A stretch of 64,000 nt of DNA from Achromobacter insuavis (GTDB taxonomy: Bacteria; Pseudomonadota; Gammaproteobacteria; Burkholderiales; Burkholderiaceae_B), in assembly GCF_902859645.1 (NCBI RefSeq), contig NZ_CADIJR010000004.1, positions 62,001-126,000 on the forward strand, written 5' to 3'. Position numbers and translations under genes: made by a program. A model generated the notes under the pieces. The model did not search any database, was not told where the DNA came from, and saw nothing but the letters and a program-made list of their open reading frames with translations. Below are positions 32,433 to 45,739 of this stretch, piece by piece. Positions within the stretch are counted from its first letter, which is position 1; each line of letters starts with the position of its first letter.

Positions 32433-32810
32433 GGCTTACGCGAGGTCGACGAGTGCCGGGTGGCGCTGCGCGTTTCTCGAAGGCGCTACGAATGGATGGC
32501 AATGATCTGCGTGCATCAGGCTTGGAGAAGCGAATAGCTAAGCGCGCGGGATCCCTGGCTTGCAGAGAGCGAACTCGATGGCGAGAGAAAAGAGAGAAAA
32601 GGAAGACCGTCGAAAAACCGAAGTCCAAAAGCCGCGCGCCACAGAAACACCGCAAGCCCCACGACTGTTTGGGGGCGGCGCAAGCGCTCGCCACGCGCAA
32701 ACCAGTACCCACCGCACCGCCCACCACCGCCCCCCAAAGGAGATGGGCGCACCAGAAAACCACTCTGCACCATCGCGCAGCGCACCCAAATCACTTGCAG
32801 CGACACAAAC

Positions 32811-32844
32811 GCCCATTGCGGCCGCCCGCGCGGCCGCAATGGGC
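32811..32844. repeat. Perfect 15-bp-arm palindrome
   Basis: Arms 32811-32825 (GCCCATTGCGGCCGC) and 32830-32844 are perfect complements around a CCGC loop. There is no poly-T on either side, so it is not a canonical intrinsic terminator. Confidence 0.8.
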
Positions 32845-32902
32845 AGCCCTGCAGGTTTCATGCCCTGCACACAGGTCTAGCAGCGCACCGAGCCAAGACG
32901 CA

Positions 32903-33074
32903 CGTAGCCCCTCGGTCGGGCGGACCCGATGGCGGGCAACCTCGATGCGCCCGAGGGAATCCGAAGGGAGCCGAAGGCGGACGAGGATGACAACGGGGAA
33001 GTCCGGAGCGAACGCTCCGGACCGCAATCGTGGGCGCCCGCCATCGGGTCCGCCCGGACGAGGGGCGACCTACG
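32903..33074. repeat. Structured dispersed repeat, copy 1 (conserved core inside long inverted arms)
   Basis: Inverted arms 32917-32937 and 33036-33056 are a perfect 21-bp match. Pairing continues outward as GCCCCTCG (32907-32914) with CGAGGGGC (33059-33066). The 98-nt interior holds block A (32944-32967, GATGCGCCC..GAAGG) and block B (32999-33031), which contains the hairpin GTCCGGAGC-GAAC-GCTCCGGAC and ends CGCAATCGT. Blocks A and B recur almost identically in copy 2 at 44948-45125, whose arms are unrelated in sequence. It lies 32 bp before the stop of the minus-strand oxidase gene. I do not recognise the family; no coding function is supported. Confidence 0.85.
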
Positions 33075-33105
33075 AAGCGCCTTCCCCCCCGCCAACAAGC
33101 CCCTC

Positions 33106-43864: not shown

Positions 43865-44860
43865 ATGACGCAAACCCGCACGTTCCGGGTCGGCCCCCTG
43901 CTGCGCGGCCTCTGCCTGAGCCTGGCGGCCATCCTGCCCGCCGCCGCCCACGCCGATTGGCCTGACCGCCCCATCCACATGGTGGTGCCGTTCCCGCCCG
44001 GCTCATCGCCCGACATCCTGGCGCGCACCATCTCGGAACCGCTGGCGCAGGCGCTGGGGCAACCCATCGTCATCGACAACAAGACCGGCGCCGGCGGCAA
44101 CATCGGCACCCGCATCGTCGCCCAGGCCAAACCCGACGGCTACACCCTGCTCTACACGATCAACGGCCCGCTGGTCACCGCGCCCACGCTCTACAAGAAG
44201 ACGCTGGGCTACGACCCGCTGCAGGACCTGGCGCCCGTGACGCTGGTCGGCACCAGCCCCAATGTGCTGACCGTGCCCGGCAACCTGAAGAACGTCAATT
44301 CCGTGCAGGACTTCGTCCGCATGGTGAAGGAACACGGCAGCTCGCTGAACTACGGCTCCGTCGGCCCCGGCAGCTCGGCCCACCTGGCCATGGAAATGTT
44401 CAAGGAACGCGCCGGCATCGACATGGCGCACATCCCCTACGCCGGCTTCCCGCAGGTCATCAGCGCCATCATCGGCGGCGACATCCAGGCCGGCTTCATG
44501 GTCCCCGCCATTGCCGTGCCCCAGACCCGCGACGGCAAGGTCAAGATCCTCGCCGTCACCAGCCTGCAGCCCAGCGACACCCTGCCCGGCATCCCCACCA
44601 TGGCCTCGCAGGGCTACCCCGACTTCGAAGCCATCTCCTGGAACGCCATCCTGGTCCCCGCCGAAACGCCGATGCCCATCATCGAGCGCCTGAACAGCGA
44701 ACTGAACCGCATCATCAACAGCGACGCGGTCCGCAAGCAGATGGCCCTGCAATACTTCACCCCCGCCGCCTCCACCCCCGAGGCCCTGACCGTCCGCATC
44801 CAGGACGAAAAGGCCCGCTGGGACCAAGTCATCCAGAAGCTGAACCTGTCACTGGACTAA
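43865..44860 (+). CDS. Bug-family (TctC-type) periplasmic receptor
   Basis: The 331-residue protein has a signal peptide (LLRGLCLSLAAILPAAAHA) and the Bug pattern DWPDRPIHMVVPFPPGSSPDI, VIDNKTGAGGNIGT, then LNYGSVGPGSSAHLA and GIPTMASQGYPDF. It is expected to bind a carboxylate or aromatic acid in the periplasm. No tctA/tctB genes are nearby, as is frequent for orphan Bug proteins of Bordetella-type bacteria. AGGAG lies before ATG 43865. The structured repeat copy 2 follows the gene. Confidence 0.95.
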   Translation: MTQTRTFRVGPLLRGLCLSLAAILPAAAHADWPDRPIHMVVPFPPGSSPDILARTISEPLAQALGQPIVIDNKTGAGGNIGTRIVAQAKPDGYTLLYTINGPLVTAPTLYKKTLGYDPLQDLAPVTLVGTSPNVLTVPGNLKNVNSVQDFVRMVKEHGSSLNYGSVGPGSSAHLAMEMFKERAGIDMAHIPYAGFPQVISAIIGGDIQAGFMVPAIAVPQTRDGKVKILAVTSLQPSDTLPGIPTMASQGYPDFEAISWNAILVPAETPMPIIERLNSELNRIINSDAVRKQMALQYFTPAASTPEALTVRIQDEKARWDQVIQKLNLSLD

Positions 44861-44947
44861 GCCCGCAAGCCCTCTCCCCCAAAGATTGCCGGCAAAAACG
44901 CCAAGCAAACAACTCGCCCCACCACCCGCGGTCAAGTCACGACGCGA

Positions 44948-45125
44948 GCGAGTGACGGGGCAGGCGGGGGATGGCGGGGCGTGTAGATGCGCCCGAGGGA
45001 ATCTGAAGGAACAGCCGAAGGCTGTGACGAAGATGACGAAGGGGGGGGCCGCCTAGGCAAGTCCGGAGCGAAGGCTCCGGACCGCAATCGTAGCCCCGCC
45101 ATCCCCCGCCTGCCCCGTCACTCGC
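44948..45125. repeat. Structured dispersed repeat, copy 2 (conserved core inside long inverted arms)
   Basis: Perfect 33-bp inverted arms at 44948-44980 and 45093-45125 enclose a 112-nt core. Block A (44986-45009) matches copy 1 at 23 of 24 positions; block B (45059-45091) matches at 32 of 33, again with the hairpin GTCCGGAGC-GAAG-GCTCCGGAC. The variable middle is longer here and contains ACAGCC-GAA-GGCTGT. The arms share no sequence with those of copy 1. It lies between the convergent Bug receptor and trmL genes, 12 bp from the trmL stop. It may act as a bidirectional transcript end or be a mobile non-coding element. Confidence 0.87.
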
Positions 45126-45136
45126 GCCTAAAGAAC

Positions 45137-45607
45137 CTAAGTCCCCCCCTCATACCCCAACTGCCGCCAAGCCTCAAACACCGTAACCGCCACGGCATTG
45201 GACAAATTCAAGCTCCGCTGCCCCGCCCGCATCGGCAACCGCAACCGCTGCTGCGGCGCGAACATCGCATGGTGCTCCGCCGACAACCCGGCGCTCTCCC
45301 GCCCGAACACGAACACATCCCCCTCCTCGAACCGCACATCCCCCACGCTGCGTTGCGCCTGCGTGGTCAAGGCATAGATGTGGGAAGCCGCCGCCCCCGT
45401 ATCCGCCAGCGCCTCCTGCAGCGTGTCGTGCACGCGCACCGGCTGCCACTCGTGATAGTCCAGCCCCGCCCGCCGCATGCGCGCATCGTCCAGTTCGAAA
45501 CCAAGCGGGCGCACCAGGTGCAATTGCGCGCCGGTATTGGCGCACAGGCGGATCGCATTGCCCGTGTTGGGCGGAATCTCGGGGCAGACGAGGATGACGT
45601 GGAACAT
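45137..45607 (-). CDS. trmL: tRNA (cytidine/uridine-34-2'-O)-methyltransferase
   Basis: The 156-residue SPOUT methyltransferase has motifs [18 protein letters not shown] (motif 1), [12 protein letters not shown] (motif 2) and [25 protein letters not shown] (motif 3). These are characteristic of TrmL/YibK, which methylates the wobble base of tRNA-Leu isoacceptors. ATG 45607 gives the standard N-terminus [17 protein letters not shown]. It lies downstream of comF on the same strand. Confidence 0.97.
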
Positions 45608-45739
45608 GGCGGACGGATGCAAAGACGTTGAATGACGGGCGGCCGGCCTTGGCCGCGCAGCAGCGATTGTCGCCGATTTGGACGGCCGCCCCGGCCCGCG
45701 AGGCCGCATGGCGCGCAGCCCCCGCGCCGGCGCCGGGCG

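Follow-up and report, generated by a model that had tools for sequence, protein, structure and literature searches.

How can a long stem differ in sequence from one copy of a repeat to the next and still be paired throughout? The question is raised by two copies of a structured element in the window analysed here, a stretch of 64,000 nucleotides of the Achromobacter insuavis genome. Copy 2 lies between the ends of a Bug-type receptor ORF (43865-44860, + strand) and a TrmL-like ORF (45137-45709, - strand), both named from their translations. As the sequence-only reading stated, its arms (44948-44980 and 45093-45125, + strand) are perfectly complementary over 33 nt; they are separated by 112 nt, and the predicted + strand fold reaches -136.5 kcal/mol, compared with -77.3 +/- 4.6 for shuffled sequences (z = -12.8). 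Just outside the 5' arm is a 5' box region (44915-44947), for which a loose consensus, ..CCCCa.c..ccg.....aag.c.ca.c..gA, was derived by column from 74 upstream regions of the same type (type B). The arm is followed by the inner junction GTGTA (44981-44985), which faces GTA on the 3' side and is found in 74 of 132 elements, and by a conserved core (44986-45090) that was delineated from an alignment of 38 copies, pair counts and the predicted fold, and consists of P1 (GATGCG/CGCAATC), a P2-P3-P4 branch and the P5 hairpin. P3 (ATCT/AGAT) closes the P4 hairpin ACAGCC-GAA-GGCTGT (45001-45034), and both helices covary, G-U-type one-sided changes being absent; the stem of P5 (GTCCGGAGC-GAAG-GCTCCGGAC, 45061-45082) is invariant across the 38 aligned copies. 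Between P2 and P5, copy 2 carries an optional 14-nt insert (GGGGCCGCCTAGGC, 45045-45058) that is also present at loci L002, L010 and L013. Downstream of the 3' arm, the conserved 3' box GCCTAAAGAACC (45126-45137; consensus G.CT.AAGAACcc in the 74 type-B elements) abuts the convergent TrmL-like ORF at its stop codon. All these parts of the element are on the + strand.

Copy 1 (32907-33066, + strand) belongs to a second type (type A) and is located between thiC and a glcD-like ORF, names that were read by eye from the translations. Its arms occupy 32907-32937 and 33036-33066, and its core 32944-33030. The 21 perfect pairs reported previously are indeed there and are followed by a G.T pair at the outer end; pairing resumes past this short disruption, so that the true arm is 31 nt long. 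Copy 1 is embedded in a longer composite repeat unit (32656-33078, + strand) with a sharp 3' edge after CCTACGAAG; the unit was recognized because, among the matches listed from other genomes, many span query positions ~957 to 1378-1379, others beginning later. Downstream of the element at L213 (G006) and L216 (G024), the 3' box CCTACGAAG occurs in several degenerate tandem repeats. Other hairpin modules, with the motif GGCCGCCCGCGCGGCC, are found at 32801-32850 of the window and between the paired elements of L002, L011, L021 and L034. These modules, which lie between diverging element pairs, have variable, paired arms of their own and tails such as CGGGCCCCGC, and may evolve in the same way as the element arms.

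Junctions and arms were typed for 132 elements of five genomes (plus 2 others). Type A, with 40 elements, combines an arm of mostly 31 bp with the junction AACCTC/GTGGGC, and is flanked by CAgCGC and CGTA upstream and CTACGAAG downstream of the stem; type B, with 74 elements, has arms of mostly 33-34 bp, the junction GTGTA/GTA and the downstream box CT.AAGAAC. A GTAG-like foot (consensus CGTA-G across the 5' foot) is present in type A only, the corresponding type B consensus being gA-G. Box positions were also used to look for inversion of the spacer between the arms: the 3' box is located downstream of the stem in 119 of the 132 elements, and a bulk count put a loose reverse pattern upstream in 11. 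Overall, the predicted fold of the + strand is a conserved three-way junction borne by a 31-34-bp stem. The core model is based on 38 of the 42 copies listed; another alignment, which misplaced the short P4 hairpins, was not used. Across these 38 copies, 97.7% of the 1078 core cells are paired, with 59 double changes and no G-U-type single change, and 22 of the 25 unpaired cells fall at a single P4 pair. The covariation score of the core exceeds that of all 500 shuffles; 6 pairs have a double change and 9 further pair types occur, numbers that do not rise above those of the shuffles.

The genome from which the window comes yields 59 covariance-model matches, among which 40 are full-length copies above 110 bits; the matches at or below this score appear to be fragments, copies interrupted by insertion sequences, or opposite-strand echoes. 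The family-level search gave a match in 56 of the 268 genomes, comprising 42 of the 43 members of the genus (the exception, G023, is a useful negative species) and 14 genomes elsewhere, 6 of which, with best E-values no better than 2e-5 to 8e-4, may represent chance matches. In a sample of the order, 4 of 399 genomes match, three in the same family and one weakly. The genus members listed singly have 3 to 78 model matches per genome, fragments and opposite-strand echoes included; counts leave out degenerate copies too divergent for the core patterns, which tolerate up to 2 and 3 substitutions. When named genomes were scanned with a pattern, 19 stretches were recovered, all from Bordetella (genomosp. 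2, 4, 7 and B. petrii), and the covariance model matches all 19. Three genomes of a second genus in our set (g8) carry the same DNA as Bordetella records, with 23 of 23 40-mers identical at the loci compared, and this genus is therefore Bordetella. In these relatives, the arms are ~30 bp long, and P5 and P1 have different sequences that are still paired in the predicted folds. In another genus of the family (g9; L170 and L182), P4 holds an extra segment of tens of bases. The plasmids and phages searched for the element gave no match. The core seems to be a target of IS110-family insertion: a copy in G036 contains, inside its core, an insertion with an IS110-family transposase gene (PF01548, PF02371; L184:433-1389, - strand), and seven cores of the window's own genome (L003, L009, L020, L026, L027, L028, L036) are cut at ..ACGA^GGATGA.. 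by similar insertion ends.

The sequence-only reading described the arms of the two copies as entirely different. This holds for copy 1 and copy 2, although across the family the arms have a common length and common end motifs: the stem is 31-34 bp long in 145 of 150 elements and shorter than 30 bp in the remaining 5, and these 150 elements carry 116 distinct arm pairs. The arms are not always locus-specific and perfect. Unrelated loci bear the same arm, the 5' arm of copy 2 itself recurring unchanged at L005 (G000:C14), and 54 of the 145 full-length arms are imperfect; both observations are among those that the sequence-only reading had named as refuting its proposal. Among the 116 distinct arm pairs, located by a script that seeks pairing and is thus biased toward paired arms, 87 of 3718 cells are non-Watson-Crick, with G.T outnumbering A.C 50 to 8.

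The suggestion that pairing is preserved by coordinated change is supported by orthologues, which were matched through their flanks (112 reciprocal-best pairs, 99 with arms of equal length). In the 99 equal-length comparisons, which have loci in common and accordingly are not independent, 348 of the 379 differences in the 5' arm are accompanied by one at the partner base; shifting the register by 1 to 4 positions in either direction leaves 103-138 coincidences, with 132-133 at a shift of one. Binned by divergence of the adjacent 45 nt, four comparisons with flanks at most 5% diverged contain no double and one single change; 16 comparisons at 5-10% contain 34 double and 4 single changes, where independent change would yield 0.84 and 68; 48 comparisons at 10-20% contain 134 and 41 (expected 9 and 357); and 31 comparisons above 20% contain 180 and 14 (expected 21 and 380). 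Ten of the 13 unequal-length pairs differ by one base per arm, which is partly so by construction given that arms are defined by pairing.

Among the double changes from one Watson-Crick pair to another, 219 of 333 are transversions, 97 of them CG<->GC, a spectrum similar to that of single changes in the flanks (793 transversions to 505 transitions). Without G006, transversions make up 79 of 132, and between the closest genomes, G000 and G011, 28 of 52. Double changes cluster in tracts, with 85 close neighbours versus 65 in simulations and none of the 2000 simulations as high (26 comparisons). The ratio of the pair rate to the single-site rate in the adjacent 45 nt ranges from 0.29 to 1.27 across genome pairs, with wide bootstrap intervals, so the notion that the arms evolve faster than their surroundings was dropped; three comparisons involving G006 give 1.15, 1.21 and 1.27, and the fourth, represented by one locus, 0.85.

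The account that we consider the probable one, if well short of certain, combines selection on the + strand structure with repair of the stem by templated copying from arm to arm. The family is an old and dispersed one, and a single + strand, either the RNA of a 3' untranslated region or single-stranded DNA, is predicted to fold into the conserved three-way junction carried by the 31-34-bp stem. The two arms would evolve as a unit: a mutation in one would soon be copied to the other through templated hairpin repair, that is, replicative template switching or hairpin/cruciform correction. Each base pair would then change at about the rate of a nearby unpaired base, with pairing staying nearly perfect. 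Template switching is reportedly able to homogenise the arms of inverted repeats, according to one study. From the sequence comparisons, we infer that the coupling probably reflects templated synthesis, because all types of substitution are involved, changes come in tracts, one-armed states are few and the pair rate is close to the free single-site rate. Selection on the fold is also needed, because the core is conserved across genera, G.T exceeds A.C 50:8 and orientation is biased. Neither slow compensation nor ectopic conversion fits these observations as well as arm-to-arm copying with selection.

The chief rival, to which we assign a distinctly lower but still appreciable probability, is a structured RNA that changes by slow compensatory substitution, with homologous exchange of finished alleles between species producing sudden jumps. 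Between G000 and G011, the near flanks have diverged by 11% compared with 3.5% further out, and alignments often break upstream near the element; this raised divergence leaves room for slow compensation combined with allele exchange. Given such flanks, ready-paired alleles may have been imported from other lineages, which would make more time available for slow compensation than assumed here. The excess of G.T over A.C and the sense orientation of the elements (see below) are in line with slow compensation as well, as is the absence of double changes, with one single change, in the four least diverged comparisons. Two further observations count against templated copying: the transversion excess is weaker in the closest genome pair (28 transversions versus 24 transitions), and the pair-rate ratio varies widely. 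The excess of G.T itself could result from a C-to-T bias on one strand. However, compensatory change through G-U intermediates is expected to be biased toward transitions and to lag far behind the rate of change in free DNA, and population genetics predicts far slower pair change when intermediates are deleterious. Against this expectation, the majority of double changes, even in the closest pair, are transversions, for which there is no G-U route, and the pair rate is close to the flank rate in three of the four G006 comparisons, with few one-sided states.

Arm-to-arm copying might also be more than an accident of replication. It is possible, but in our judgement unlikely, that a dedicated cycle, belonging to the host or linked to the element, makes regular use of the folded + strand as the template for arm re-synthesis, renewing the arms and keeping the core. 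If so, the element would be a hairpin system that corrects and diversifies itself, not a side effect of slips in replication.

Ectopic gene conversion, in which arms and core would be swapped as a unit from copies at other loci, is improbable as the source of arm change. It has the recurrent arms in its favour: a second arm no more than 4 edits away, in some cases identical, exists in the same genome for 17 of the 39 full-length arms of G000 and for 19 of the 38 of G011. The remaining arms, 22 of 39 and 19 of 38, respectively, are separated by 5 or more edits from all others in their genome, so that unique arms are not the rule that they were initially taken to be. These two classes provide a test for donors. 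Both the G000 and the G011 arms are unique at 17 loci, and the 14 of these with equal arm length have 48 double and 5 single changes, 26 of the 46 clean double changes being transversions; of the 10 loci with arms that have near relatives, the 9 with equal arm length have 6 double and 8 single changes. The loci for which no donor arm was found are thus precisely those with the strongest coupling, and on this test ectopic conversion was rejected as the main cause of arm change. By eye, L022, L081, L084 and L088, which represent a single locus, retain locus-specific outer and inner arm ends around a middle part that is altered on both sides, which also disagrees with a swap of whole units. Conversion may nevertheless shuffle cores and recurrent arms: the orthologues L008 and L109 have different core types and nearly identical arms.

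Still less probable is a REPIN or MITE mobilised by a transposase in trans, even though the family is dispersed and intergenic, reaches tens of matches in some genomes and, in type A, has a GTAG-like foot. The Y1/RAYT transposase domain (PF01797), the only transposase type searched for, has no match in the window's own genome, whereas 5 of 14 control genomes are positive, and mobilisation by Y1/RAYT was rejected on this basis. The stems are 31-34 bp long, not 5-13 bp, and the variable part is the arms, the reverse of REP and MITE ends. A MITE has conserved terminal inverted repeats and a target duplication; here, the arms are variable, and neither the TrmL nor the thiC sites contain, by eye, a clean insertion with a target duplication. 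In the thiC-glcD spacers of 11 species, the covariance model scores a type-A copy above 95 bits in 7; by eye, the 5' side of one of these, in G020, has been lost. G006 and G014 are the two species in which an inverted partner scores above 100 bits, and the spacers of G040 and G018 give no model match. The G011 and G009 spacers are, by eye, deletion products, and in that of G009 (L210) two inverted copies are apparently fused via the palindromic P5. The element-less copy-1 sites look like the result of deletion of an older pair, not like vacant targets.

That the core inserted itself and duplicated its flanks as an inverted copy, as the sequence-only reading proposed for perfect arms that differ between loci, is barely credible given the fixed arm length, the conserved borders, the arms common to unrelated loci and the different arms of orthologues at one locus, and because, at the TrmL site, where 15 of the 19 loci with both neighbours lack the element, no one-arm remnant was found, 12-mers of the window arms being absent from 14 of the 15 and present once, somewhere in a 3.5-kb locus, in the other.

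The position of the elements bears on what the fold is selected for. They lie in spacers at gene ends; by a simple codon-usage ORF script, which gave a callable upstream ORF for 96 of the 132 elements, 90 of these 96 share the orientation of the upstream gene. The nearest downstream ORF is convergent in 80 cases, and in 60 its stop codon is 18-105 bp away. At 11 loci, the element occurs as a diverging pair of copies separated by other hairpin modules. The gene-end position and sense orientation suggest that the fold is a transcript-boundary or 3'-end structure, and we infer that it would act at gene ends, in the delimitation or protection of transcripts. RNA is a possible functional molecule. 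The loops follow the d(GNA)/d(GNAB) rules, and these rules together with the lack of G-U in the core had pointed to DNA as the molecule that must be functional; this argument is weakened by the different loops in other species and by the excess of G.T over A.C in the arms.

Both interspersed structured repeats and template switching are already known. Template switching at imperfect inverted repeats is documented, along with a role in hairpin maintenance (PMC8794818), and Monttinen and Loytynoja (2022), in the portion of their article consulted, describe multi-base compensatory changes that restore perfect stems and propose template switching as their cause (PMC8794818). Matched multi-base changes in both arms occur in the present family too; the cases in the consulted part of that article come from rRNA and microRNA genes, with the rRNA stems called short, whereas here stems of 31-34 bp are dispersed over tens of loci per bacterial genome. 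REP, BIME and GTAG palindromes are likewise palindromic repeats with many copies, often dimers, and type A has a GTAG-like foot; according to the excerpt used, their reported stems are 5-13 bp long (PMC3733652), unlike the 31-34-bp stems, three-way-junction core and variable arms of the present elements. A 2008 survey describes Bor-1 and Bor-2 of Bordetella bronchiseptica as intergenic, structured stem-loop families of 117 and 167 bp (PMC2267715). Compared by description only, Bor-1 or Bor-2 may be a relative of this family; arm coevolution is absent from the part of their description that was available (PMC2267715). Structured RNAs in Rfam resemble the element in their covarying helices and junction core, but no Rfam 15 family reaches its gathering score on the element, and the sub-threshold matches are mostly to long-hairpin microRNA models. 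Literature searches for this repeat family found no description of it.

What is new is how clearly, and on what scale, the arms of a multi-locus bacterial family are seen to evolve in a coupled way. A structured repeat family, lacking an Rfam entry and present in Bordetella and a related genus, should be recognised in genome annotation. The elements also bear on an old puzzle, namely how a long, perfect stem can acquire a new sequence while avoiding intermediates in which pairing is broken. In many species of the genus, tens of loci per genome carry the same type of stem, and with the flanks as a clock, the rate of arm copying, the length of its tracts and its spectrum become measurable in nature. 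The family is thus a natural test bed for how perfect hairpins remain perfect.
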